Assembly: GCF_018873765.1 (NCBI RefSeq)
Contig: NC_057926.1
Coordinates: 38,548,946 to 38,612,945 of the forward strand
DNA length: 64,000 nucleotides
Source of the DNA: Telopea speciosissima
Lineage: Eukaryota; Streptophyta; Magnoliopsida; Proteales; Proteaceae
Reading direction: 5' to 3'
A program made the position numbers and the translations under genes. The notes under the pieces are model-generated. The model was not told the DNA's origin, searched no databases, and saw nothing but the letters and a program-made list of their open reading frames with translations. This document shows positions 8,933 through 51,778 of the stretch, in pieces. Each line of letters starts with the position of its first letter. Positions within the stretch are counted from its first letter, which is position 1.

Positions 8933-9529
8933 TTTGACTTGTATATGCTCAACAATTGTTGAGATCACATTAATGAATGTTTCATATTTTAATACATGAA
9001 AGGTCAAAGGTGGTGGCACTGGCCTCCACTAGATATTAGTAGTCATAATTAGTAGAATTTTCTTTTCCATTTGATCAATGATGAAACATTGAGAAATTGG
9101 CCCAACGAGAGAAGTGTGTAAGTACTGAGTTAGCCAAAGATTAGATTACATTCCTTCTTTCTTCTTTTTCTTGTTTAGACACTCTGCTCGCCCTAGCACA
9201 CTAGTTAGTAGTGCTAGCATAGTGGCACTCCTAGTTGTTGATAGTGAAGGAACAAAGATGAGGAAAGATTGCTATTGGTGAAGTCTGATCTCAGTCTTGA
9301 AAGAAGATACCACCTCCTGGTCTGGCCAAGGTTATCAGTCCATCCATACTCCACTGCACTAACAGGTTTTTTAAAGGGTTAAAACTATATTTCTTTGAAT
9401 CGATGAGAGAATTTGATAATTCCTACATGCTTTAATGTTCAACCAATTATACTCTTATATTTTAAGTAGAATGTTAAAAAAAAAAGAAGAAAGTTTCCAG
9501 GTAAAATCAAAATATTTTTTTTTAAAAAC

Positions 9530-9537: not shown

Positions 9538-9545
9538 GATAAACT

Positions 9546-9619
9546 TGGCCCATGCAGGTCTCGAACCTGCGACCTTCGCGTTATTAGCACGACGCTCTAA
9601 CCAACTGAGCTAATAGGCC
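9546..9619 (-). tRNA. tRNA-Ile (anticodon AAU)
   Basis: A 74-nt cloverleaf with no mismatch: acceptor GGCCTAT/ATGGGCC, D stem GCTC/GAGC, anticodon stem TCGTG/CGCGA around loop CTAATAA (anticodon AAT), T stem GCAGG/CCTGC with loop TTCGAGA, discriminator A. Box A and box B promoter elements are intact. It decodes isoleucine AUU/AUC codons after A34-to-inosine editing. A T-run follows the 3' end. It is the only intact member of the array that extends to about 13560. Confidence 0.95.
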
Positions 9620-9904
9620 AATGTAAAATAATTTAAGTTAAAATATATTTAAAACTATTTATTCTAAACATTACCACAAGAGAAAATTTCCATACATATA
9701 ATATAAGATTTGATTAAATAGTACTTCATTATTGTGAACAAAACTTTGACAACTTCTGAATTATGCTGTAATTCATTTTCTCTTTTGCCTTTATCTGTTT
9801 TTAGATAAGAGTCATGCAAATAAAGAAGAAAGTTTCCACGTAAAATCGATACAAAAGGTTAAAATTTTGCTTGAAATATTTTTTTTATAAAAACAAAATC
9901 AAAA

Positions 9905-9961
9905 CAAACTTGAGACCTTTGCGCTATTAGCACGATGCTCTAACCAACTAAGCTAATAGGT
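9905..9961 (-). pseudogene. Truncated tRNA-Ile pseudogene
   Basis: It keeps the anticodon region and D arm of the tRNA at 9546 (reading TATTAGCACGATGCTCTAAC on the plus strand) but lacks most of the T arm and the acceptor 3' side. Confidence 0.8.
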
Positions 9962-10022
9962 CAATATAAAGAATTAATAATATTGAAATATTTTTACAAT
10001 ATTTATTCTAAACAAAACACCT

Positions 10023-10191
10023 GGGAAGCACTTTTCTATCTAGAAGTGTGGCCTATGCCAGTAGTCCTATATGTCTATCTCTCTCCTTGTTAAAACAAGG
10101 TGGCAAAGCTATCTTTTCATATGGGGAGGAGAGAGATAGACTCATGGGACTGCTGGCATAGACCACACTCCCAAACAAAGTTCTTTTTCCT
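10023..10191. mobile_element. 169-bp Mutator-like MITE, type A copy 1
   Basis: Inverted arms run from GGGAAGCA...AGTGTGGCCTATGCCAGTAG to CTGGCATAGACCACACTCCC...TTTTTCCT. Family ends and the 9-bp target duplication are defined by the isolated copy at 29896-30064. Confidence 0.75.
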
Positions 10192-10301
10192 AAAACACCC
10201 CGAGAGAAAATTTGCTTAAATAAAGTCTTAAGATGGAAAAAAAAAATGTAATGACACTCTAATCAACTGAGCTAATAGGCAAACATAAAAAAAAAAAATA
10301 A

Positions 10302-10469
10302 GAGAGAAAGTTCACTGTACGGGAGTGTAGCCTATGCCAACAGTCTCATGAGTTTATCTCATTCCTCCCCATTTGAAAAGACACCTTTGCCCCTCGTTTT
10401 GAGGAGGAGAGAGATAGACACATGGGAGTGCTGGCGTAGGCCACACTCCCGGACAGAAAATTATTGCCC
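10302..10469. mobile_element. 169-bp Mutator-like MITE, type B copy 1
   Basis: Same family as the type A copies but with its own diagnostic arms (GAAAGTTCACTGTACGGGAG...CTCCCGGACAGAAAATTATT). It is flanked by A-rich 9-mers similar to AAAAAATAA. Confidence 0.75.
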
Positions 10470-10617
10470 AAAAAATAATGTTGGAATATTTTAACAATAT
10501 TTATTCTAAAAAAACACACCGAGAGAAAATTTGCTTAAATAAAGTCTTAAGATGGAAAAAAATTTCAATGACACTCTAATCAACTGAGCTAATAGGGAAA
10601 CATAAAAAAACAAATAA

Positions 10618-10786
10618 GGGAGAAAGTTCACTCTACGGGAGTGGGGCCTATGCCAATAGTCTCATGAGCTTATCTCTTTCCTCCCCCATTTGAAAAGACA
10701 TCTTTGCCCCTTGTTTTGAGGAGGAGAGAGATAGACACATGGGAGTGCTGGCTTAGGCCACACTCCCGGACAGAAAATTACTGCCC
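10618..10786. mobile_element. 169-bp Mutator-like MITE, type B copy 2
   Basis: 169 bp between GGGAGAAAGTTC and ATTACTGCCC, next to AAAAAATAA on the right. This is a second B copy without an intervening A copy, so the repeat order was rearranged here. Confidence 0.75.
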
Positions 10787-10903
10787 AAAAAATAATTTTA
10801 GAATATTTTTACAACATTTATTCTAAAAAAACACACCGAGAGAAAATTTGTTTAAATAAATTCTAAGATGGAAAAAAAAATCAAAACAAAAATAAAATAA
10901 ACT

Positions 10904-10977
10904 TGGCCCATGCAAGTCTTGAACTTGGGACCTTTGCATTATGAACACAATGCTCTAACCAACTTAGCTAATAGGCC
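10904..10977 (-). pseudogene. tRNA-Ile pseudogene, full length, decayed
   Basis: 74 positions align with the intact tRNA. The anticodon loop and T stem carry changes that break pairing, so a functional tRNA is unlikely. Confidence 0.85.
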
Positions 10978-11036
10978 AATATAAAAAATAATAATATTAG
11001 AATATTTTTACAATATTTATTCTAAACATAACACCC

Positions 11037-11205
11037 GGGAAGCAGTTTTCTATCTAGAAGTGTGGCCTACGCCAGTAGTCCTATGTGTCTATCTCTCTCC
11101 TCCTTAAAACTAGGGGGCAAAGCTATCTTTTCATATGGGGAGAAGAGAGATAGACTCATGGGACTACTAGCATAGACCACACTCCCAGACAAAGTTCTTT
11201 CTCCC
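11037..11205. mobile_element. 169-bp Mutator-like MITE, type A copy 2
   Basis: Exactly 169 bp from GGGAAGCAG to TTTCTCCC, flanked by ATAACACCC and AAAACACCC (8 of 9 identical), which fits a 9-bp Mutator-type target duplication. Confidence 0.8.
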
Positions 11206-11309
11206 AAAACACCCCGAGAGAAAATTTCCTTAAATAAAGTCTTAAGATGGAAAAAAAATTTCAAAGACACTCTAACTAACTGAGCTAATAGGCAAACATA
11301 AAAGAAAAA

Positions 11310-11477
11310 GGGAGAAAGTTCTCTGTACGGGAGTGTGGCCTATGCCAACACTCTCATGAGTTTATCTCTTTCCTCCCCCTTTGAAAAGACACCTTTGCCC
11401 CTTGTTTTGAGGAGGAGAGAGATAGACACATGGGAGTGCTGGCGTAGGCCACACTCCTAGACAGAAAATTACTGCTC
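11310..11477. mobile_element. 169-bp Mutator-like MITE, type B copy 3
   Basis: GGGAGAAAGTTCTCTGTACG...AAATTACTGCTC, followed by AAAAAATAA. Confidence 0.75.
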
Positions 11478-11595
11478 AAAAAATAATGTTGAAATATTTT
11501 ACAACATTTATTCTAAAAAAAAGTACTTACCGATAGAAAATTTGCTTAAATAAATTCTAAGATGAAAAAAATTCAAAACAAAAACAAAATAAACT

Positions 11596-11670
11596 TGGCC
11601 CATGCAAGTCTCGAACTGCGACCTTCAGCGTTATTAGCATGACTCTCTAACCAACTCGAGCTAATAGGTC
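11596..11670 (-). pseudogene. tRNA-Ile pseudogene, full length, with small indels
   Basis: Aligns to the whole tRNA, with small insertions and a loss that disturb the T arm, anticodon arm and D arm. Confidence 0.85.
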
Positions 11671-11730
11671 AATATAAAAAAATAATAATATTGGAATATT
11701 TTTACAATATTCATTCTAAACAAAACACTA

Positions 11731-11923
11731 GGGAAGTAGTGTAGTTTTTATCTAGAAGTGTGGCCTATGAAATAGTCACATGTCTGAATTTTTCTCTCCT
11801 CCTTAAAACAAGGGGCAAAACTATCTTTTCATTTTGGGAGAAGAAGTAGACAAAACAAATAGACTGGCCATCAAGTCGAACGGCATGTACCACATTCCTG
11901 AGCTATACAACATTCTTTTTCCC
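11731..11923. mobile_element. 169-bp-family MITE, type A copy 3 (heavily decayed)
   Basis: Ends GGGAAGTAG and TCTTTTTCCC are still recognisable and the right flank is AAAACACCA. The middle has expanded and lost much of its pairing. Confidence 0.65.
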
Positions 11924-12024
11924 AAAACACCACGAGAGAAAATTTTCTTAAATAAAGTCTTAAGATGGAATAAAATTTCAAAGAAACTCTAAAAAGAGCT
12001 AATAGGAAAACATAAAGGAAAATA

Positions 12025-12219
12025 AGGAGAAAGTTAATAAATCTAAATGAAAAATTCAAAACAAAACAAATAATGTGGCCTATGCCAACACTCTCATGAG
12101 TTTATCTCTTTCCTCCCCATTTGAAAAGACACCTTTGCCCATTGTTTTGAGAAGGAGAGGGAGAGAGACACATGAGAGTGCTGGCGTAGGCCACACTCCC
12201 GGACAAAAAATTACTGCTC
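12025..12219. mobile_element. 169-bp-family MITE, type B copy 4 (left end disturbed)
   Basis: The right arm is well preserved (GGCGTAGGCCACACTCCCGG). The left arm is interrupted by linker-like AT-rich sequence before GTGGCCTATGCCAACACTC. Confidence 0.65.
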
Positions 12220-12341
12220 AAAAAATAATGTTGAAATATTTATACAACATTTATTCTAAAAAAACGTACGTACCGATAGAAAATTTGCTTAAATAAATTC
12301 TAAGATGGAAAAAAAAATTCAAAACAAAAACAAAATAAACT

Positions 12342-12415
12342 TGGCCCATGCAGGTCTCAAACATGCGACCTTCGCGTTATTAGCACGACGTTCTAACCAA
12401 CTAAGCTAATAGGCC
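12342..12415 (-). pseudogene. tRNA-Ile pseudogene, best preserved of the array
   Basis: 74 nt with the same anticodon loop CTAATAA as the intact gene. The D stem and T stem each have a mismatch (GCTT/GAAC; GCATG/CCTGC), so folding should be weakened. Transcription cannot be excluded. Confidence 0.8.
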
Positions 12416-12475
12416 AATATAAAAAATTAATAATATTGGAATATTTTTACAATATTTATTCTAAACAAAACAGCC

Positions 12476-12644
12476 GGGAAGCAGTTTTCTATCTAGAAGT
12501 GTGGCCTACGCCAGTAGTCCTATGTGTCTATCTCTCTCCTCCTTAAAACAAGGGGGCAAAACTATCTTTTCATATTGGGAGAAGAGAGATAGACTCATGG
12601 GACTACTGGCATTGACCACATTCCCAGACAAAGTTCTTTTTCCC
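12476..12644. mobile_element. 169-bp Mutator-like MITE, type A copy 4
   Basis: Exactly 169 bp, flanked by AAAACAGCC and AAAACACCC (8 of 9 identical). Confidence 0.8.
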
Positions 12645-12749
12645 AAAACACCCCGAGAGAAAATTTCCTTAAATAAAGTCTTAAGATGGAAAAAAATTTC
12701 AAAGACACTCTAACCAACTGAGCTAATAGGCAAACATAAAAGAAAATAA

Positions 12750-12917
12750 GGGAGAAAGTTCTCTGTACGGGAGTGTGGCCTATGCCAACACTCTCATGAG
12801 TTTATCTCTTTCCTCCCCATTTGAAAAGACACCTTTGCCCCTTGTTTTGAGAAGGAGAGAGATAGACACATGAGAGTGTTGGCGTAGGCCACACTCCCGG
12901 ACAAAAAATTACTTCCC
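12750..12917. mobile_element. 169-bp Mutator-like MITE, type B copy 5
   Basis: GGGAGAAAGTTCTCTGTACG...ATTACTTCCC, flanked by AGAAAATAA and AAAAAATAA (8 of 9 identical). Confidence 0.8.
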
Positions 12918-13035
12918 AAAAAATAATGTTGGAATTTTTTTACAACATTTATTCTAAAAAAACACACCGAGAGAAAATTTGCTTAAATAAATTCTAAGAT
13001 GGAAAAAAAAATTCAAAACAAAAACAAAATACACT

Positions 13036-13109
13036 TGGCCCATGTAGGTCTTGAACGTACGACGTTCGAGTTATTAGCATGACACTCTAACCAACTAAGC
13101 TAATAAGCC
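13036..13109 (-). pseudogene. tRNA-Ile pseudogene, full length, decayed
   Basis: Whole tRNA outline is present with changes in the T arm and anticodon stem. Confidence 0.8.
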
Positions 13110-13219
13110 AATGTAAAAAAATAATAATGTTGAAATATTTTTGCAACATTTTTTATAAAAAAAAAAAAAAAAACACCCCAAGAGAACTCGCAAATTTCAA
13201 AACAAAATTAAAATAAACT

Positions 13220-13293
13220 TGGCCCATCCAAGTCTCAAACCTACAACCTCCGTGTTATTAGCATGAGACTCTAAGCAACTGAGCTAATAGGCC
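13220..13293 (-). pseudogene. tRNA-Ile pseudogene, full length, decayed
   Basis: Lies 184 bp from the previous copy with no MITE between, which probably shows the original spacing. Two yet more decayed copies follow at about 13360-13465 and 13500-13560. Confidence 0.8.
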
Positions 13294-13999
13294 AATATAA
13301 AATAATAATGCTTAACTATTTTGTTTGGAAAAAATTTTCAAAACAAAATTAAAATAAACCTTTGGCCTTTTTTAAACGCAGGTCTTGGGAGTCTCGGCCC
13401 TCGCACCATTCGCGTTATAATATGCTTGACATTCTAAATCTCAAAGTGATTCTAAAAATAGGCCAACATAAAATAAATAATCTTGGAATAATTTAAAACA
13501 CAAAAAATACACTTGGTTTATATAATCTGAACCAATCGAAAGCTAATAGGGACAATATAATAAATAATGTATTGAGCCAATATTAAAAAAATAATTAATA
13601 TTTTTAAACATTTCCAAAAAGAAAGTTCCTCAAAAGTATATGGCTACTTCAAAATCAAATTTATATAAATTATTTTTGTTGGGGGGGAGGAGGAGGACCG
13701 GGAGGGATAAGTGAGCTCTAACCAAGTTGAGTTGAACTCTATGACCTCAAAACATTAAAAAACTTGTGTTAATTGTTAGGTGATGGTTTTAACAAATTGA
13801 GTGACCCCTTGGGGTGTGTTAAGGTCATTGTTGCTTCATAGAACATCTATCTCTCACGCTCATGGCCATGGCAACCTCAACCTAGTGTTGAAAAATAAAT
13901 GAGATACTTTTAGGCTTTTGGTGAATGAACTCATTTATATTAATTTTCTAGGTTTTAATTATGTCTAGATGAAAAGTGGAAATTTATTTAAAGATCGAT

Positions 14000-22340: not shown

Positions 22341-23026
22341 TGTAGAGGGTTGATAAAATTAGAAAAAAATACTCTCCTATCAGAGGGGATTTCTTTTTCT
22401 TTTTATAGTAAATTGGCAGATTTCTAACTAATTAAGGTTGAGAAGAGAGGAACGAGATAGATAAATGGAAAGAAGAGAAAACTTTAAGAGAGAGACGTGG
22501 AATGGGAAGAAAAAGTGTGGCTTATCACTAAATATTATGGTCTCCAAATTCCGATTTGCCACTATAAAGCTGACCATGAATCTAGACCTTGTCTATTTAT
22601 CTATTTATGTGTTCTTAAGAAATATATATAATTTCTATCCAAAAAAAAAATATATATATATATATATATACAATTACATATGCCTTTTTTTAGATAAATT
22701 TTAGAAATTCTAATGTGTTATATTTCTATCACCTTCCCGATCATAACTAAACGACCTGTGAATCATCAAACCCTTCTTCCACATGACCCTAATATCACTC
22801 TCCATTCTCCAATGAGGGTAGAGACCTAGGAACAATCAAAATACTATTTCCTCTCACTATCCCTAAGTTTGTTTTTGGGATTTCCTTTTAACCTAACTGC
22901 CTTTCATGTTTAAACGTTTTCGCCTACAAAACCCCCCAAAATCCCTCTTTCCCTCACCATCGAAAGCCCAAGGAGGGCCTCTGTTCCTCTTCTTCTTTTT
23001 GTCTGTTATCTGTTCGTTAAAGTTCC
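22341..23026. other. Upstream region and 5' leader of the amidophosphoribosyltransferase gene
   Basis: AT-rich to about 22900 with an (AT)n run at 22652-22670. From about 22880 it becomes C/T-rich, typical of a plant 5' leader. An ATG at 22906, out of frame with the gene, opens a frame that overlaps the real start; it matters only if transcription begins upstream of it. No clear TATA box was fixed. Confidence 0.4.
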
Positions 23027-24757
23027 ATGGCCTCAATCCATCTTTCTTCGTTCTCGTCTTCTGTAGAGAACACCCATCTTGTCTCTCCATTACCGTCTCA
23101 AAAGCACCGTTCTTTCTCTCCAAACACCTTCCAAAACCCCTTCTTTTCTCCCAAAACGTCATGTTCTCAATACATTTCGCATACCCAGAAACCTCCTTTT
23201 AAGCTCTCTTCCAAGAATCCTATCTCAGATTTAATCTCTTCTGAACAAAACCCAGATGGGCCTTTCATTGGTTCTGATGATGATGATGATGATAAGCCCC
23301 GAGAAGAATGCGGCGTTGTGGGTATCTACGGTGATCCTGAAGCCTCCAGGCTCTGCTATTTAGCCCTCCACGCCCTTCAACATCGTGGCCAAGAGGGCGC
23401 TGGGATCGTCTGTGTCAACAATGGTGTGCTCCAATCCATCACCGGCGTAGGCCTTGTATCCGATGTTTTTAACGAGTCTAAGCTGGATCAGCTTCCGGGC
23501 GAATCCGCAATTGGGCATGTTCGGTACTCCACCGCAGGCTCTTCCATGCTCAAGAACGTTCAACCCTTCGTTGCTGGTTACCGTTTCGGCTCTGTTGGAG
23601 TTGCTCATAATGGAAATTTGGTGAATTATCGCTCTCTCAGAGCGGGCCTTGAAGAGAATGGCTCCATCTTCAATACTACCTCCGATACAGAGGTTGTTCT
23701 CCACTTGATTGCAACATCAAAAACTCGTCCTTTCTTTCTTCGAATCGTCGAGGCCTGCGAGGTGCTCAAAGGAGCGTATTCGATGGTCTTCCTCACAGAA
23801 GACAAGCTGGTTGCAGTGCGTGACCCATATGGGTTTCGCCCTCTGGTGATGGGAAGGAGAAGCAATGGTTCTATTGTGTTTGCTTCTGAGACCTGTGCGC
23901 TTGACCTCATAGAAGCAACCTATGAGCGTGAGGTTAATCCTGGAGAGGTGTTGGTGGTTGACAAAAATGGGGTTAAATCGCTCTGCTTGATGCCTCATAA
24001 GGAGCGGAAGGCTTGTATCTTCGAGCATATCTACTTCTCTTTACCCAATTCTGTGGTATTTGGTCGATCAGTCTATGAATCTCGTCATGCTTTTGGGCAG
24101 ATACTAGCCACCGAAGCTCCTGTGGACTGTGATGTTGTGATAGCTGTGCCGGACTCCGGCGTGGTTGCGGCTCTTGGGTATGCAGAGAAGGCAGGGGTTC
24201 CCTTCCAGCAAGGACTGATAAGGTCACACTATGTGGGTAGAACGTTCATTGAGCCCTCTCAGAAGATTAGAGATTTTGGAGTAAAACTCAAGCTTGCACC
24301 AGTTCGTGCAGTATTAGAAGGGAAGAGGGTTGTGGTTGTGGATGATTCAATTGTGAGGGGGACTACTTCTTCCAAGATAGTTAGGTTGCTCAAAGAAGCA
24401 GGGGCCAAGGAAGTTCACATGAGAATTGCAAGCCCACCAATTATTGGGTCTTGCTATTATGGTGTTGACACACCCAGCTCAGAGGAGTTGATTTCTAATA
24501 GGATGACTGTAGAGGGGATTAGGGAGTTCATTGGGTCTGACTCACTGGCGTTCTTGCCTCTCAACAGCTTGAAAAAGTTGCTTGGCCGTGATTCTCCAAA
24601 CTTTTGTTATGCTTGCTTCTCTGGGGAGTACCCTGTTCCTCCTAATGAAGTCAAGGTGAAAAGGTTGGGTGACTTTGTGGATGATGGTTTGAATGGCAGT
24701 TTAGAATTGATAGATGGAGGTTGGATTAAAGGAACTAAAAATGGGCAGCTTAATTGA
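23027..24757 (+). CDS. ASE: Amidophosphoribosyltransferase, chloroplastic (glutamine PRPP amidotransferase)
   Basis: A single intact 576-codon exon, as is usual for plant genes of this family. The enzyme makes 5-phosphoribosylamine from PRPP and glutamine, the first committed step of purine synthesis, in plastids. Residues 1 to about 90 are Ser/Pro-rich with few acidic residues until a DDDDDD stretch, fitting a transit peptide plus propeptide. Cys95 in EECGVVGIYGD would be the N-terminal nucleophile after cleavage. The glutaminase domain follows (ALQHRGQEGAG, HNGNLVN). The PRPP-binding motif VVVVDDSIVRGT lies near residue 436. Cysteines in KACIFEHIYF, GSCYYGVD and NFCYACFSGEYP match Fe-S cluster ligands of the family. 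The start at 23027 gives the expected length. Strong call; the number of the paralogue cannot be told. Confidence 0.97.
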   Translation: MASIHLSSFSSSVENTHLVSPLPSQKHRSFSPNTFQNPFFSPKTSCSQYISHTQKPPFKLSSKNPISDLISSEQNPDGPFIGSDDDDDDKPREECGVVGIYGDPEASRLCYLALHALQHRGQEGAGIVCVNNGVLQSITGVGLVSDVFNESKLDQLPGESAIGHVRYSTAGSSMLKNVQPFVAGYRFGSVGVAHNGNLVNYRSLRAGLEENGSIFNTTSDTEVVLHLIATSKTRPFFLRIVEACEVLKGAYSMVFLTEDKLVAVRDPYGFRPLVMGRRSNGSIVFASETCALDLIEATYEREVNPGEVLVVDKNGVKSLCLMPHKERKACIFEHIYFSLPNSVVFGRSVYESRHAFGQILATEAPVDCDVVIAVPDSGVVAALGYAEKAGVPFQQGLIRSHYVGRTFIEPSQKIRDFGVKLKLAPVRAVLEGKRVVVVDDSIVRGTTSSKIVRLLKEAGAKEVHMRIASPPIIGSCYYGVDTPSSEELISNRMTVEGIREFIGSDSLAFLPLNSLKKLLGRDSPNFCYACFSGEYPVPPNEVKVKRLGDFVDDGLNGSLELIDGGWIKGTKNGQLN

Positions 24758-29873: not shown

Positions 29874-29895
29874 TGACTTTTATATGTTGAATTAT

Positions 29896-30064
29896 GGGAA
29901 GCAGTTTTCTGTACGGGAGTGTGGCCTACACCAGTACTCCCTTGTGTCTATCTCTCTCCTCCTCAAAACAAGAGGGCAGAGGTGTCTTTTCACATGAGGA
30001 GGAGAGAGATAGACTCATGGGAGTGTTGGCGTAGGCCACACTCCCGGACACAGAACTTTTTCCC
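29896..30064. mobile_element. 169-bp Mutator-like MITE (type copy)
   Basis: GGGAAGCAGTTTTCTGTACG at the left end mirrors the reverse complement of the right end, CGGACACAGAACTTTTTCCC. The 9-bp target duplication TTGAATTAT lies at 29887-29895 and 30065-30073. The 9-bp duplication and long inverted repeats fit Mutator-like elements. It is the same family and length as nine copies in the tRNA array. Confidence 0.9.
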
Positions 30065-31595
30065 TTGAATTATATAGCGCTAGACACATATTAATGGAGC
30101 TTAAGTTATAAAGTAAGGATACGAGGAGAGTTATTAGATGAGGTTTTCATTTGAGGAATTTAGGTTATATCTCGATCTAAAAGTGTTGTGTTTTGAATTG
30201 TAGATCAACGTATAAATGGATTTCGATGATGAACACGATGAGGGTTATGCGAAGCGCAGGAAAGCAATTATACTAGGGCCTGCTGAGACCAAGTTTTGGA
30301 GCTGCTGAACATTCCTTGAAGTTCAAATAAGCCCCACTCTCATGCTGGCAATTTATTGCTGATCTGCAATTCAAATCAGTACCTGCGGCTGGGGTTTTTT
30401 ATTTTCTTCATTTTATACCGAATTATAACTAAATTCTCTAGTTCTGTCATTTTCTCTCTTTTTTTTTTTACTTATTTCAGTTTTTCTTGAACTGGGTTGT
30501 CAGTTTTTGGTTTTGTTTCCTTGGTTTAATAGCAGAATTTTTCTGTAGCTCCCTTAATTCTGTTTTTTGTTTAAAGATGAATTCTGCAAAAACAAGTGTT
30601 TGATCTTTCTTATATGTTTTATGATGTTCTCTAGTGGCCTTTTAGTTGGCTTTGATTCTTTTCATCTTTGCCCAAATCTGCATTAGATGTCTTAGTGTTC
30701 TGATTGTTTGTAAATTCTTTTTTCTGTGCATTTCTATAAATACAAAATAGCGGTTCTTCAACAGGCTTTTGGATCAGGGTAGCCGAGTGAGCTGGGTGTT
30801 AGCTGGTTCACCCAAAACCAAAAATCATGGGGCATACTTTGTAGTTTCTAATTTCTGTTTTAAAGAGATACTAATTAGATATTAGGACATCTTTCCTCTT
30901 ATTTATATTTCTTGCTTCACACATCCCCTACACTATGTATGGGACTCTTTTTAGTTTGTTTCCTTATTTTTTATTTATTGCTAACAGCACTCTGGAGCTC
31001 AACCCACAATTTTATGATTAATGGAGAACTGGTTTTATGCCATTGTGCTGTGAGATACAATTGATAGTGGTGAGAAGCTTAGGGTTAGTGAGAAACTTAG
31101 GTTGAGACTTGAGAAGCCTTCTTCATATCCCACTTCTTGTCCCTCTTTCTTCTTTACCTCTAAAGTTTCTATTTTATTAGTCAGAACCTCAATATGGTTT
31201 TGGCACAACTTCTTGGAGATGGTTGCTGTATGCCACCCACGAGTCTCAAATCTATAAATCTCAACCTCCGCTCCAACTCTTAAGTTCTTGTGTCTCCTTA
31301 TCCATATTTCTTTCTTTAATCAACACCTGCTGCTGCTGCTTCTGCTGCTGCTGCAAAGACCTCTCTCAATCAGTTAATTATAGAAATAAAACTAAAAAAA
31401 TAAGATGGATAGGTGTTGTGAATTCAATCGAAGAATCTCAACCTTTGTATTTAAATACTCATGTAATCGATTATTGAGATAGCAATATACATGAGACAAA
31501 CATTCTTCTTCAAACTTATTAAGATCAAAATGATTAATTCAGAGCATGGGATCAAAATAATTTGTAAAGCATTCAACGCACCAGTGCATTTAGGG

Positions 31596-34670: not shown

Positions 34671-34868
34671 GTTCTAACAAACAAATAAAACAACCTATCC
34701 CTCTAAAATCGTGGAGGGAATAACTAAGCAACACTTAAGTAAATAAAAAGACTGTTTAACCCCTAACATAAGAAAAAACTAAATATAGAAAATAAAGGCT
34801 CCAACGAAAATAAAAAACAGCCAAGTCATGGCTTCGGCTTCGTCTTCCTAGTGCTTGGATCTGCATCA

Positions 34869-37208
34869 GCTGGCAAACTCGACACCTCCTGATTACATGC
34901 TCTACATCCTTGGCCAAGTGAGACCAATAGTACCGATCAGTCACCTTCAAGATGATTTTATCCTTCCCCAAGTGTCCTCCTAAACCTCCTCCATGTAACT
35001 CCCTGATAATATGGTGTCGTAAGGACGAATCGGGAATGCACAGCCGGGTTCCTAAGAACAAATAACCATCATGTAATGAGTACTTAGGGTGTTGTCTACC
35101 CTGCTTCAAATCAGCATATAGGACTTGAAAGTCCTTGTCACTAGCATACTCTTCTCTGATCTGCTCGATACTAAGTGCATGGGCTGAAAAGTGTTTAAGG
35201 TCAGGACTTTTCTACGCAGTGCATCAGCCACTGTATTTTCCTTTCCTGACTTGTATTTAAGGGCAAAGTTGAAATCCAATAAATATGCAACCCATTTAGC
35301 ATGTCTGGTACTGCTGAACTTCTGTGAGTGGAGTTGCTTGAGTGCCTCATGATCAACGTACAGGATGAATTCTTTGCCAATAAGGTAGTGTCTCCAATGC
35401 CGCAAGACCTGAACAATAGCATAAAGCTCTATATCATAAGTAGAGTACCGAGTCTTGGCATCATTGAGTTTCTCACTGTAGAATGCAATAGAATGTCCAT
35501 TCTGTATAAGAACTCCGCCTAAACCAACATGGGAAGCGTCGGTAGCAACTTCGAAAATATGGTCAAAGTTGGGCTGGCGTAGTACTGGAGCTTCAGTCAT
35601 CTTCTTCTTAATCAGCTGGAAGGCTTTGTGAGTTGCTGCTGTCCATGCGAACTGACCTTTGTTCTGCTTGGTGCATTCAGTTATGGGTGCCATGATGGCA
35701 CTGAAATTGCAAATGAATCGCCTGTAAAAGGATGCCAAACCGTGGAAACTCCGTGCTTCAGTGAATAACGTCGGAATAGGCCATTCAATAATACTTCGGA
35801 CCTTTTCCAGATCAGCTTCAACACCCTTTGAAGAGATTATAAAGCCAAGGAAAATAACCTTGAGCAACATGAAGGAGCATTTCTTTAAATTGATAAACAG
35901 TTTCTCTTGCCGGAGCACTCTTAGAACTTGTTTCAGGTGGTCTATATGCTCATCTGGGTGCTTATTGTACATCAAAATATCATCAAAATAAACAACAAGA
36001 AATTTACCGATGAAAGGACGAAGTACCTGTGTCATGACTCTCATTAAGGTGCTAGGTGCATTCATCAGGCCAAAGAGCATAACCTTCCACTCAAACAATC
36101 CATCTTTGGTCTTGAAGGTTGTCTTCCATTCGTCTCCAGGCCGGATACGAATCTGATGGTATCCACTTCGAAGATCGATTTTGGAGAAGATCTTAGAACC
36201 GGACAGCATGTCTAGCATGTCTAGCATGTCATCAAGCCTAGGAATTCGGAACCTGTACTTGAAGGTAATCTTGTTGATAGCTCTGCTGTCCACACACATG
36301 CGCCACGAACCATCCTTCTTTGGTGTCAACAAGGCTGGAACAGCACAAAGGCTTATGCTTTCTTTAATAAACCCCTTCTTGAGAAGCTCTCCAACTTGTT
36401 TATTAAGCTCTTCATGCTCAGAGGGACTCATCCTGTAGGTGGGCAGATTTGGTAACATAGCACCAGGTACCAAATCGATGGCATGTTGAATGTCTCTGAG
36501 TGGAGGTAACTCGTTGGGCAGTTCTTCTGGCACTACATCCGAAAAATCCTGCAATAAATCTTTGATGGGCTATGTAAACTTCATCTCGAATTGGGCAGCA
36601 ACCTCTTGAGTCACCAAGGCAAGAACCAGGCCTGTATCATGGCTGGTTTGTTCAAATTCTCTCTGTGGAACAGCTAACAATTTATTTCCAGTTTCTGCCC
36701 CCTTCTGATTAGTGCGCATTACACGGCATTTTCGTACTTCTGCAGGCAAATTAAGTGGGTACCACTTGATCTCCTCTCCTTTGTGTTGAAATACACACAG
36801 ATTTTTTCATCCTAGGAGAGCAACATCATTGTCATATAGCCATGGTCTTCCTAGTAGAACATCAATCATTCTCATTGGAATGATATCACACCAAATTTCC
36901 TCTGAATACTTTTGGGCTTGTAAGGGAACACAACATCTCTTGTTCACGTCAAGTTTATTCCCATTTAATAAGGAGACTTTGTATGGCATCGGATGCTTTT
37001 CAAATTTCAGATTTGCTTTCTGCACAAGGTCTTCCGACACAAAATTAACGCAGCTACCACTGTCAACAATTATCTGGGCAGTGCGTTCACCTACTCGCAA
37101 GCGAGTACAGAAGATGCAACTACGTCGCCAATCTTCACTTTTAGATTCAGCACTCAATATACGTGCTACTACATGCACACCTCGGGTATCTTCAAGGTCA
37201 TCACCCAA
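34869..37208 (-). mobile_element. Gypsy pol region: protease, reverse transcriptase, RNase H, integrase finger (fossil)
   Basis: Protease is at 36807-37208, reverse transcriptase and RNase H at 35106-36554, and the HHCC finger of integrase at 34869-35109. The domain order is that of Ty3/gypsy. The region is broken. Confidence 0.9.
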
Positions 37209-37265
37209 GTCATCAAAATAAGTAGCCCCATCATCATCATCATCAAGGGGTAATGCATAAATACC

Positions 37266-38555
37266 CTATTCATCAAATTCATCAGGATTCTCTTCTTCCT
37301 TTTCAGCTACATGAATCTGTCTTTGTTTTACTGGACAGTCCTTAGCATAATGTCCCTTTTCATTGCAGTGATAGCATGTGTTTGAATCACTGATTTTCAT
37401 TGGGGCTTTACCCTTGTCCACACGAGAAGAGCTGCTAGTATAGGGGGCTGTCCGTGTAGAACCAGCAGTGGTGTTATTACCTATATTGTAACCATTAGTT
37501 GGCTTGGATGCTGGAAAAGATTTCCTGGTGTCAACAGCAGTGGAACCAAACCGTCTAGTGGTATTCAATAGGTCTTCAGCCTTCAATGCTTTCTCATAGC
37601 AGTCCATGATGTCTAGAACATCCGCAACTCCAATAGCTTTAATGATATCTGATCTCAATCCCAACCGAAATCAAGATAACATCTGAGTAGCACTCTCTCT
37701 GGTGTCAGTACGGGATGACAGAGAATCGAACTTCTGCATGTACTCGGATACAGTCATATTCCCTTGCCGAAGGGAATTGAGCTGATCTTGCAACTGAGCT
37801 TTGTAGTGTCTAGGCAAGTATTTCTCTGTTAGATCATACTTCATATCCTCCCAGTTGGTAGGTTCATTACCTTCACGTTCCAAGTCCCTCTCTGTTTTAC
37901 GCCACCATTCTCGAGCAGAGCCACTTAATTTGGTACGTGCTAATCTCATCTTTTGGTCTTCAGGCAAGTCATACCAGTCAAAATAGTCATCTAAGGCAGT
38001 AAGCCAATCATAGAATTTATGTGGATCACCATGGCCATCATACTCTTTCAACTCTAGTTTGACCTTCTGTGTATCAAACCTCCTGTTATTAGCTTCATCT
38101 CCAGTGAAGTAGGACCTCAAATATTCCTCAAAGTTAGGTCTTCGAGGTGCTTCAGTAGTTCTGTCCTTGTCTTCTTTGTGGTCATCTCTATCATACCTGC
38201 GTCGATCCCTGTAGTCTTTGTCATGTCCAGAATGGTCTCTGTGGTCCCTGTGACGTCTGGGATGACCTCTATGGTTTTCATCCCTTCCCAGAGTTCCATG
38301 TACTTCAGAATGTACTTGGAGTCTATCCTCCTCTACATATAGAGGGTTGCTTGCAAGAGGCACAGCTTGCCTTTGTTCCATGGCTGTCATTCGATCACCA
38401 AGAGCTTGTTGATCTGTGGAAATCTTCTGCAGCATAGTCATGATTGCAGCAAGGGAATTGGGTGGGGGTGGCTGTGTGGGGTACACAGTAGGATTGCCAT
38501 GTCCTTCCATGGCTCTGATACCAATTTGATTTAGCCTGGGTGGAACAAGTCCCAC
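37266..38555 (-). mobile_element. Gypsy gag region (fossil)
   Basis: Two adjacent open stretches encode a Gln/Pro-rich start, a charged Arg/Asp/His-rich section, the retrotransposon gag core (YDWLTALDDYFDWYDLPED) and the CCHC zinc knuckle. It belongs to the element at 27354-39577 and is not intact. Confidence 0.85.
38512..38523 (-). other. Primer-binding site, initiator tRNA-Met type
   Basis: The minus strand reads TGGTATCAGAGC, three bases inside the 5' LTR, complementary to the 3' end of plant initiator tRNA-Met. Confidence 0.9.
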
Positions 38556-39577
38556 TAGGAACCAGGTTGTGTAATAGGGTGGCCGAAAGGGACAGGTTTA
38601 TGTAATTAGGGCAAAAACTAGGGTTAGGAATTAGGGTTTGAGCTAGGGTTTTATTTAGTAATGGTGTGCAGGTTTTTAAGAGTCTATTGGTATAGGTTTT
38701 AATTAGGTTTGAACAAGAAATAAAAATTCAGAAATACTAGGGTTAGGGTTTTGGGTTTTGGGAATGAATGGATTTAGGGTTTCTAGGGGGAATCAGGTCA
38801 AGGGCTTCTGGCCGAGTGTCATAGAGGTAGGGGAGGTGATTCGGTTGAAGTTTGGTGAGGTTTGGCTAGCTGGCTAGAGCTAGACAGACTTTAGGAGCTT
38901 TAGGGTTTAAGGGAAAATTAGGGTTTATAGTAGAATGACTTCAGATTAGGGTTAACAAAAGGAATTCAACAGAACGGATGTAACTTACTGTGTTGTAGGC
39001 TTAACTTGCAGAATTAGAGGCAGCATCTAGAACCTCCTGACATTCACAATGCAAAGAGTCGCAGGAATCACCCACCCTTCACCACCTTGAGTCCACAAGG
39101 ATGCAAGCTCACAGAGGAGCAGAGGCAGCAGCTCGATGGCAGCAATCTCAGATCTGAAAACAAGAATTTTTTTATGCTGAAAAGTAGTGGGGGAGCCTGC
39201 CCACGATCTTACTATTTATAATAAAAAAGAGAGGGCTAAAGGCCTTATAAATTATTCAGACTTGAACTGGGAATCCTAGTTCTAAATCCTAGACTCAATC
39301 CTAATCAGATTAGGACTAGTGATGCCTAATCTGATTCCTAATTACAATTAGCACACTTGTACTCTAACTAGGAGTACAAGTTCCAACAAACAAATAAAAC
39401 AACCTATCCCTCTAAAATCGTGGAGGGAATAACTAAGCAACACTTCAGTAAATAAAAAGACTGTTTTACCCCTAACATAAGAAAAAATTAAGTATAGAAA
39501 ATAAAGGCTCCAACGAAAATAAAGAACAGCCAAGTCATGGCTTCGGCTTCTTCTTCCTAGTGCTTGGATCTGCATCA
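38527..39577 (-). repeat. 5' LTR of the gypsy element (1051 bp, uninterrupted)
   Basis: On the plus strand it runs from TGATTTAGCCTGGG to GGATCTGCATCA, next to the primer-binding site. It serves as the reference that fixes the insertion points in the other LTR. Confidence 0.95.
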
Positions 39578-49860: not shown

Positions 49861-50371
49861 ATATTATAATTATAGCCATGTACATGTGATGGACCCAAAA
49901 CCTACCCATTAAAACATATGCAAACACAATCATAACTGCGTAGGCCCTGCAGAATATGACATAAACCCAACAAGTTCTTATTGCTCAGTCACACAACACA
50001 GCCCTGAGTCACGCACTCCTTCAATCTAGACTTTATAGACGAGATAGAATGAGAGATTAGAATTGGATAGCTCCTCTGCCTTTTTTTTCTCATGCAAAGC
50101 TGGTTTTTGTAATATAATTAATGTGCTAATATAACTCTAGGAGGCAGTTACTTACTGCCTTTGAGAATCTTTTGACATGAAATATTCTGAATTCTAGTCC
50201 TCAACCCTGAGGAAACTGAGGGACGTTACTCTCTTCTTACATTTTCAATCATTTATTTTAGCTCAAACTCTGTTTTTTTGCCCCTGAATGTTGATCTTCA
50301 GTTTAGAAAACTTGCTAACTTAATTGTACATGCTTCTATTGCAGAGGAGAAATTAATACCCTACTGATCAG

Positions 50372-51778
50372 ATGTTGATAAAAGGAAGGAAAGTCACCAG
50401 CAGAGGGGAAGAGATGACAGCACACTATGCTTTCAGTCCCCTTGAAGATGACACCATCATCAAACATAGGCTTCTCACCCGCACAACAACCACAAGGGGG
50501 GAGCCCCCCTTGAAGAAACTTCAGAAAAAGTTCATCTCTTTTGCACTGGAGGTCGATAAGGATTCGGATAACTATAGTGACTGTGAGAAGATGTATAAAT
50601 CCTTTTTGCAGGAAATGAACACCTTTGAACTTCCACTTCTCAAGAGCAAGGCTGTTATTGATGCAAACCTTAGGGAGAAGGAAAATTTCAATGAACTGCA
50701 AGAAGAGATACAACGACAGATTTTGCAGGCACAAGCTGACATAGAAGATCTGAAAAAGCAGCTTGAAGAGAGTAAGATTGAAAGGCAACACAAAGAGGAG
50801 TGTGAAGCAATCAGAAGATTAATTGCTATGCAGCCCCCAAGATCAGAAACCCAGAAGATAATATCAGAACTTGAGAAAGAGATTGCATCATTGGAAGCTG
50901 AAAATACTGCTGGTTCGAGGACTTTGGAGCTTCGCAAGAAACAGTTTGCTCTTCTGTTACATGTGGTAAGTTGGGTTGTATATATATATATATATAAGTT
51001 GAGACTTTAACTAAAAAAAAGGAAAGAAGTGCAGAGACATTGTGAGTTACTCTGATATGCATACATTTTGGTATGTCTGTGAGCACAGGCATGTCTTGGT
51101 TTGTTTGGCATGACAGTAAACTCATGGTCTTGCAATCCTTTTTCCGTATTTACCCGATACATTTCTAGTTTCTGTTAGTTTCACAGCTTTTATAGAGGTG
51201 GTTTTGCATTTATTTAACTAGACTTCCTCTATAATTATAGCCTTGCATATCTGTCATTTTGTTTTCTAGCTTGTGTTAGCCAAAATGTAGGATCCTGCAG
51301 AAGCTTTTACTTGCAAGGAGAAAAAAAAAAAAAAAAAAAAAACCCAATGTAATTGTTTTATTAACTTATTGAACCTGTCGTGGCAGAACAGAATTCATGT
51401 AGATGACCTGAAGCAATTTGAGTATTGGGATACTTCTACGAGTCAAACTGTGTTTCTGTGAACTATGAATGTTTTTTTGTAATCACTAGCATTGCTCTCT
51501 GAAGGTTGTAGTATTAGAACTATAACCTTTAAGTGTTGTCTTACGTTTGTTACCCTAATACTTATTCAAATCATCTGATACATACAGATGATCGAGGTAT
51601 ATTTTGCCTTGGCTTATATTTTATTTGATTTCATTTTTTTCGACAGGTGGATGAGTTGCAGAATACCATAGAGGAGGAGCAGAAAAATTTGGCCGAGGAA
51701 CTGAGGACTTCTATGGAAGAGCAGAAGATTAGCATGGAGGATGTTAGTGGTGGTTCGGAAGCCATGGCTGTAGATTAA
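50372..51778 (+). CDS. THO7: THO complex subunit 7
   Basis: Two coding exons, 50372-50965 and 51647-51778, with a phase-0 GT-AG intron, encode 241 residues. THO7 is a coiled-coil subunit of the nuclear THO complex, which with TREX couples transcription to mRNA packaging and export and in plants supports small-RNA production. The near-N-terminal block [20 protein letters not shown], then [16 protein letters not shown], is diagnostic. Residues about 95-215 form a long heptad-rich coiled coil ([20 protein letters not shown] and following). The tail ends AMAVD, as in other plant members. The start MLIKGRKV matches the family N-terminus. A splice acceptor lies 28 bases before the ATG, so a leader intron is likely. 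No defect is visible. Confidence 0.95.
50979..50996. repeat. (AT)n microsatellite in the THO7 intron
   Basis: A short TATATA run just after the first coding exon's donor site. Confidence 0.85.

Follow-up and report, generated by a model that had tools for sequence, protein, structure and literature searches.

How does one tRNA gene give rise to a composite tandem repeat, and how much of the order of events can still be read from the copies that remain? This question is raised by an array of tRNA-Ile(AAU) copies in Telopea speciosissima, which spans positions 9545-13294 of the window analysed here (the whole 64,000-nucleotide stretch; contig C11, NC_057926.1, 38548946-38612945) and carries miniature inverted-repeat transposable elements (MITEs) of two types, A and B, between its tRNA copies. 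The genome searched comprised 822.9 Mb in 1287 contigs. The history that we favour, with a probability of about 0.85, agrees with a preliminary description of the locus: each MITE type was inserted once, and a block consisting of a tRNA-Ile copy (T), MITE A, a half copy without the 3' part of the tRNA (b) and MITE B was then amplified. Read along the plus strand, the array runs T0, T1, A1, b1, B1, b2, B2, T2, A2, b3, B3, T3, A3, b4, B4, T4, A4, b5, B5, T5, T6, with T1 truncated and every tRNA copy on the minus strand. The MITEs are the following (strands are relative, B being set as plus):

10023-10191, minus strand, MITE A1, 169 bp
10302-10469, plus strand, MITE B1, 168 bp
10618-10786, plus strand, MITE B2, 169 bp
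11037-11205, minus strand, MITE A2, 169 bp
11310-11477, plus strand, MITE B3, 168 bp
11731-11923, minus strand, MITE A3, 193 bp, arms strongly rearranged
12024-12219, plus strand, MITE B4, 196 bp, left end swapped for spacer-like sequence
12476-12644, minus strand, MITE A4, 169 bp
12750-12917, plus strand, MITE B5, 168 bp

These four A and five B copies occupy two fixed sites, with a single orientation and position per type. Because reverse-complemented A aligns to B over the full length, the two types belong to one family in opposite orientations. The flanks of A and B had been described as different from each other and the same in every copy. This nearly holds for the right 9-mers (for A, AAAACACCC in three copies but AAAACACCA in A3; for B, AAAAAATAA throughout), whereas the left 9-mers differ slightly, with one mismatch in each A copy and 0, 1, 2, 4 and 1 mismatches in B1 to B5, respectively (counted by eye). 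Differing flanks had been proposed as a sign of independent insertions; the small left-side differences found are read as later mutation.

At least 76 dispersed MITE loci were recovered in two genome searches (39 + 37), and 41 of these listed loci (23 + 18) were sampled together with one locus in the window (29890-30066), giving 42 loci and 43 copies. A 9-bp duplication (≥8 of 9 matches, exact ends) was present at 31 of the 42 loci and was exact in 27; with one mismatch allowed, 8-bp and 10-bp duplications were found 3 times and twice, respectively, and 200 shuffles with mispaired flanks gave 0.69 on average and never more than 4. Mutator-like MITEs have inverted ends and a 9-bp duplication. 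To judge from its 9-bp duplications, inverted ends, length of 168-169 bp and many dispersed copies, the A/B family is a Mutator-like MITE. The copy at window positions 29890-30066 is solitary and has its own 9-bp duplication, and two further copies lie 12 bp apart within AT repeats at C9:5474732-5475081 (L091). Long hairpins form when 150-nt stretches within B5 and A4 are folded (z = -13.0 and -8.9, respectively). A MITE-derived microRNA was rejected as a candidate: the MITEs match several microRNA families in Rfam, but always under the gathering score, and these hits are attributed to the hairpin shape in general.

A tree was built from 52 rows, namely 4 A copies, 5 B copies and the 43 dispersed copies, one of the 42 loci holding two. 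A forms one clade in it (100/97) and B another (99/95), and an earlier tree with 24 dispersed copies gave the same grouping. A and B thus each have a single origin among the sampled copies, and the interleaving of A and B that had been suggested as a test of amplification did not occur. Among the sampled dispersed copies, the nearest to A4 differs from it by 11.2% and the nearest to B5 by 6.5%. Many independent insertions at two preferred sites would be in keeping with the large number of family members, the close pair on C9 (5474732 and 5474913) and the slightly varying left 9-mers, but within either type all copies group together to the exclusion of the 43 dispersed ones and share orientation and position. 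The 52-row tree rejects such repeated insertion for the sampled copies, and we regard it as scarcely credible. Mean MITE divergence, with the scrambled A3 and B4 excluded, is 6.7% within A (A1, A2, A4), 6.7% within B (B1, B2, B3, B5) and 20.0% between A and B. Equal divergence within the two types is expected if A and B multiplied together.

The MITEs are set among the following tRNA copies and MITE-free spacers, located with ARAGORN, Rfam, a tRNA-Ile hidden Markov model (HMM) or alignment:

9545-9620, minus strand, T0, intact tRNA-Ile(AAU) (ARAGORN; Rfam 66.6 bits), with a T-run immediately downstream
9621-9906, long T0-T1 spacer (343-bp unit) without a MITE, also found in related loci at C11:33.29-33.55 Mb (L014 and L017 aligned)
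9907-9963, minus strand, T1, truncated copy (HMM 45.4 bits; alignment)
10251-10280, minus strand, b1, half tRNA with the common deletion (HMM; alignment)
10566-10597, minus strand, b2, half tRNA (HMM; alignment)
10903-10978, minus strand, T2, full-length copy with the anticodon mutated to CAT (called tRNA-Met by ARAGORN; Rfam 49.6 bits)
11264-11294, minus strand, b3, half tRNA (HMM; alignment)
11595-11671, minus strand, T3, full-length copy with indels (HMM search; alignment)
11996-12010, minus strand, b4, half-tRNA remnant (only 1.3 bits; placed via position and alignment)
12341-12416, minus strand, T4, full-length copy (ARAGORN tRNA-Ile; Rfam 44.4 bits)
12702-12731, minus strand, b5, half tRNA (HMM; alignment)
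13035-13110, minus strand, T5, full-length copy (ARAGORN tRNA-Ile; Rfam 41.2 bits)
13111-13218, T5-T6 spacer of a 184-bp unit, no MITE, both MITE sites empty
13219-13294, minus strand, T6, decayed full-length copy (Rfam 31.4 bits in a permissive search only; HMM)
13391-13437, doubtful and very weak tRNA piece (HMM 5.2 bits)

The periods T2-T3, T3-T4 and T4-T5 measure 694, 745 and 694 bp, in line with the 690-750 bp reported before, but the strict alternation of A and B units reported with them is broken at 10281-10978, where two B units adjoin. Spacer divergence among the four A and four full B units follows the MITEs (A-A, 6.4%; B-B, 7.7%; A-B, 14.5%). As in a higher-order repeat, units are therefore closer to each other at the multimer period than to their neighbours (6.7% versus 20.0% for MITEs; 6.4% and 7.7% versus 14.5% for spacers). 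The B site is empty in A spacers and the A site is empty in B spacers; neither site carries a MITE in the T5-T6 spacer or in the aligned C11:33.x spacers of L014 and L017. A third marker of the dimer is the half-tRNA deletion common to the copies between A and B, the junction of which is identical from b1 to b5 once substitutions and the decay of b4 are taken into account (alignment). B-unit spacers 3 and 4 also have an extra insertion in common and pair at 99/98 in the spacer tree, which points to a later block duplication.

Gene conversion is common in tandem arrays, and the same pattern might have been produced in an array that was already long, with A and B inserted once each and then copied between units without any dimer amplification. 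The persistence of a MITE-free unit at T5-T6 would suit this history, as would the contrast between the tRNA bodies of T2-T5, which differ by 9.3-22.4%, and the spacers of the same units, which differ by 2.6-7.8%, as if older units had received converted middles. However, MITE type, non-MITE spacer differences and the b deletion covary in 4/4 A and 4/4 full B units, and conversion of the MITE alone would not bring the b deletion along in the same alternation. Moreover, the excess divergence of the tRNA bodies lies mostly at CpG columns. In the four full B units, tRNA bodies vary at 20/75 columns and spacers at 11/112 (P = 0.004); without CpG columns, of which 11/15 vary, the figures are 9/60 and 10/108 (P = 0.31, not significant). 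Conversion in place of amplification is consequently judged improbable.

The CpG excess bears on the state of the tRNA copies themselves. Relative to T0, which as a reference may miscount ancestral differences, CpG changes number 19/60 in T2-T6, 40/142 in 12 copies of a second array on C4 and 16/67 in six pseudogenes of the C11:33.x loci, against non-CpG changes of 21/319, 69/734 and 17/345, respectively (T1, b1-b5 and five partial pieces on C4 are omitted). Deamination-type changes make up 15/19, 36/40 and 14/16 of the CpG changes in the window, C4 and C11:33.x, respectively. This pattern fits methylated, silent copies, with methylation as the presumed cause; in Arabidopsis, tRNA genes in clusters are reported to be methylated and repressed (Hummel et al. 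2020, cited in PMC11700998). Transcription as a cause of additional mutations in the tRNA bodies was rejected, given that the excess is mostly at CpG columns, with P = 0.31 outside them. Since the same excess occurs in the C4 and C11:33.x copies, where no MITE was found, neither transcription nor MITEs are needed to account for it.

The array holds 12 tRNA copies including b4 (one intact, six further copies of which one is truncated, and five half copies), plus one doubtful piece, which bears out the earlier count of an intact tRNA-Ile(AAU) with at least a dozen same-strand copies. T0 is probably the functional gene of the locus, as all of its 76 bases are matched at 100% by five further genome loci. 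The derived copies look like pseudogenes. They had been said to decay with distance from T0, but the HMM scores of T0-T6 (87.3, 45.4, 60.6, 55.8, 76.6, 64.8 and 59.3 bits) are not ordered by distance, and a decay gradient away from the intact gene is ruled out; the low score of T1 is due to its truncation. The best preserved derived copy on HMM score is T4, with 4/76 changes relative to T0. T4, T5 and T6 lie within 954 bp and above the Rfam cut-off, T6 only permissively (31.4 versus 29 bits) and before the high-confidence filter of PMC11700998; that source defines a plant cluster of tRNA genes as at least three within 1 kb (PMC11700998).

Where did the array come from, and what was its original unit? 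The left end belongs to something older:

9147-9365, left flank, older duplicated segment, seven matches (79-86% identity) at six C11:33.29-33.55 Mb loci

This flank, T0, the long spacer and T1 are common to the six loci, about 5 Mb away, and on this resemblance T0, T1 and the long spacer are assigned to an older duplicated segment. Each of the six has one intact or near-intact tRNA-Ile and one 68-69-nt pseudogene (HMM), and no MITE match was found in 3.1 kb around each of them. The six pairs of tRNA-Ile and pseudogene lie at C11:33286255-33552839 (L013-L017, L021) in duplicated segments 22-108 kb apart, four of which are approximately 94-98% alike over 2.4-3.1 kb. A 76-bp part of the window flank (9182-9257) also has full or partial matches of 82-91% on several contigs, twice on C12, and is perhaps organelle-derived. 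As MITE-free relatives on the same chromosome, the six loci serve as an outgroup and help to polarise the history: comparison with L014 indicates that the B-type state is ancestral at spacer columns 22, 40 and 54 and the A-type state at column 66.

Lengths without the MITE (alignment) are 137-139 bp for A units, 140 bp for b1-b2, 200-203 bp for full B units (n = 4) and 184 bp for T5-T6. The 184-bp spacing of T5 and T6 (13036 and 13220 in the preliminary description) was thus measured as reported. That description also took 184 bp as the length of the units that received the MITEs; the full B units instead place the ancestral unit near 200 bp, and the T5-T6 unit is probably a shortened one.

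A second array, at C4:16049061-16051699 (L022, L023), consists of 17 minus-strand tRNA-Ile pieces (same HMM), of which ARAGORN calls four tRNA-Ile, and has no MITE match. It was ruled out as a relative of the window array, as its spacers differ (by eye) and it lacks a MITE match. Hence array formation needs no MITEs, and tRNA-Ile arrays arose at least twice in this genome. At C1:68822297-68822573 (L025, L032), two tRNA-Ile genes stand in inverted orientation approximately 200 bp apart.

By what mechanism was the dimer multiplied? The place where alternation fails offers a possible clue:

10470-10597, minus strand, putative hybrid spacer (B-type left, A-type right) with the b2 half tRNA (diagnostic columns, alignment)

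Left of the switch, the unit b1-B1-b2 is B-type at 4/5 diagnostic columns (15, 22, 54, 66); right of it, the unit is A-type at 4/4 columns (93, 95, 96, 292) and also carries the b deletion. The unit probably arose when a B spacer recombined with an A spacer and one T-A pair was lost, the footprint expected of unequal crossing-over. In that case, no fewer than five dimers were once present. An alternative route is amplification of the dimer by an extrachromosomal circle with rolling-circle copying and reinsertion. The block is local, its 690-bp direct repeats could yield circles, and the steps of gain do not separate this route from crossing-over; on the other hand, the probable hybrid is the product expected of exchange between repeats, and there is no second dimer locus among the matches listed. 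We consider the circle route rather unlikely and prefer unequal crossing-over.

The proposed history would thus run as follows, with the order of events and the crossing-over inferred. A short tandem array would have grown from a tRNA-Ile(AAU) gene and the degenerate copy beside it, with units of about 200 bp, each a tRNA with an AT-rich spacer. A Mutator-like MITE would have entered one spacer (A) and a second member of the family, in the opposite orientation, the next (B), while the tRNA copy between them would have lost its 3' half (b); these three events may have come in any order. The T-A-b-B block would then have been raised to four or more copies, for which unequal crossing-over of misaligned units is the simplest route. 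Later recombination of a B spacer with an A spacer probably dropped one T-A pair, leaving the hybrid b1-B1-b2. The array is decaying now, with derived copies that resemble pseudogenes and many CpG sites lost. The preliminary description is judged largely right and to have put the main events in the correct order, and its two single insertions followed by dimer amplification are upheld by the single clades, common sites, MITE-free relatives and equal divergence. New here are the inverted relationship of A and B within one family, the common half-tRNA deletion, the probable recombinant and the older T0-T1 segment.

Several points weigh against this history. A3 differs from its sisters by 23-28% and B4 by 13-17%, which block amplification with clock-like decay does not predict. 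In the hybrid, column 40 is A-type, the wrong way for the proposed switch, and column 7 matches neither type; the spacer tree puts the hybrid among the A spacers, with weak support for the A/B split (72/98), and so neither confirms nor contradicts the hybrid reading strongly. The B 9-mer is low-complexity A/T and is weak evidence taken alone, and 11/42 dispersed loci have no clear 9-bp duplication. The dispersed copies were picked by similarity to B5 or A4, from 41/76 listed loci and one window locus, and beyond this sample there could be a more closely related copy that would disrupt the clade of A or of B. Finally, gene conversion could also move MITEs between units.

The neighbours A3 and B4 (11731-12219) are heavily rearranged and their spacers are not: the spacer of A3 is not unusual despite the divergence of the element, and the left end of B4 resembles the end of a unit spacer. 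Both may stem from a single additional rearrangement. Assembly of tandem repeats is difficult, and the odd scrambling of A3 and B4 might be taken to mean that the number or order of dimers, especially at this pair, is an assembly artefact. Nonetheless, the other MITE copies are 4-8% apart within type and the units have private indels, which makes them separable, and only one such locus is found among the matches listed in the genome search. We regard an artefact as very improbable and retain the order given above.

Elsewhere in the window are an amidophosphoribosyltransferase-like coding frame at 23021-24754 (GATase_7 + Pribosyltran), Ty3-type retrotransposon pieces on the minus strand at 34759-38597 (gag, protease, reverse transcriptase with RNase H, integrase zinc finger) and a THOC7-like coding frame at 50357-51007, a gene content consistent with a plant.

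What, then, does the locus add? The early steps of higher-order repeats are usually erased by homogenisation. Here two insertions, one deletion and a set of spacer differences survive in a few units, and the order of recombination can be read in part. The formation of a composite DNA repeat has thus left a legible trace at this locus, which is well suited to teaching and, on a small scale, to testing; it reveals no new mechanism. "Satellite birth", as the array had been called, is an overstatement: satellite DNA consists of long, abundant tandem arrays, and this one has 4-5 decaying dimers over about 3.5 kb, with no T-A-b-B dimer at other loci among the matches listed in the genome search.

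The ingredients are each known; their combination is unusual and useful but does not amount to a system of a new kind. In the literature searched (by titles and abstract openings, with most subscription journals lying outside), no array of tRNA copies was found in which MITEs mark a dimer. As a family, A and B resemble other plant Mutator-like MITEs in their 168-169 bp, terminal inverted repeats, 9-bp target duplications and many copies, and the element showed no unusual feature. A close parallel for the tRNA genes is a cluster of 28 tandem tRNA-Ile genes on maize chromosome 2 (PMC11700998), which likewise consists of tandem tRNA-Ile copies made by local duplication, according to the part of that report available. 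The array described here differs in its fewer, mostly decayed and pseudogene-like copies and in the two MITEs inside its repeat, while no MITE is mentioned for maize in the same part of the report. Because this genome has two arrays with different spacers and a tRNA-Ile cluster is published for maize, one may speculate, with a low chance of being right, that tRNA-Ile(AAU) genes repeatedly seed plant tandem arrays and that the hairpin-forming MITE pair sets the period, making the heterologous dimer the preferred unit of misaligned exchange. If true, a transposon would fix the register of a nascent repeat.

A tRNA-Cys cluster on Arabidopsis chromosome 5, with units of about 0.4 kb, adjoins a tRNA pseudogene and overlaps annotated Helitrons (PMC10701932). 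It is similar in that the tRNA copies stand in tandem, a pseudogene flanks them and the unit includes transposon sequence. In that cluster, however, each unit has one tRNA gene and copying by Helitrons is considered by the authors, whereas in T. speciosissima the dimer is marked by two Mutator-like MITE insertions, and the transposon has the look of a passenger. Satellite DNAs have also been derived from MITEs or from parts of tRNA-related short interspersed nuclear elements, as the accessible portion of a review describes (PMC9659126). In those satellites, too, a mobile element joins a tandem unit. Here, unlike the cases covered in that portion, the tRNA array would have come first and the MITEs were inserted into it, and the repeat stayed at 4-5 dimers at the single locus found.

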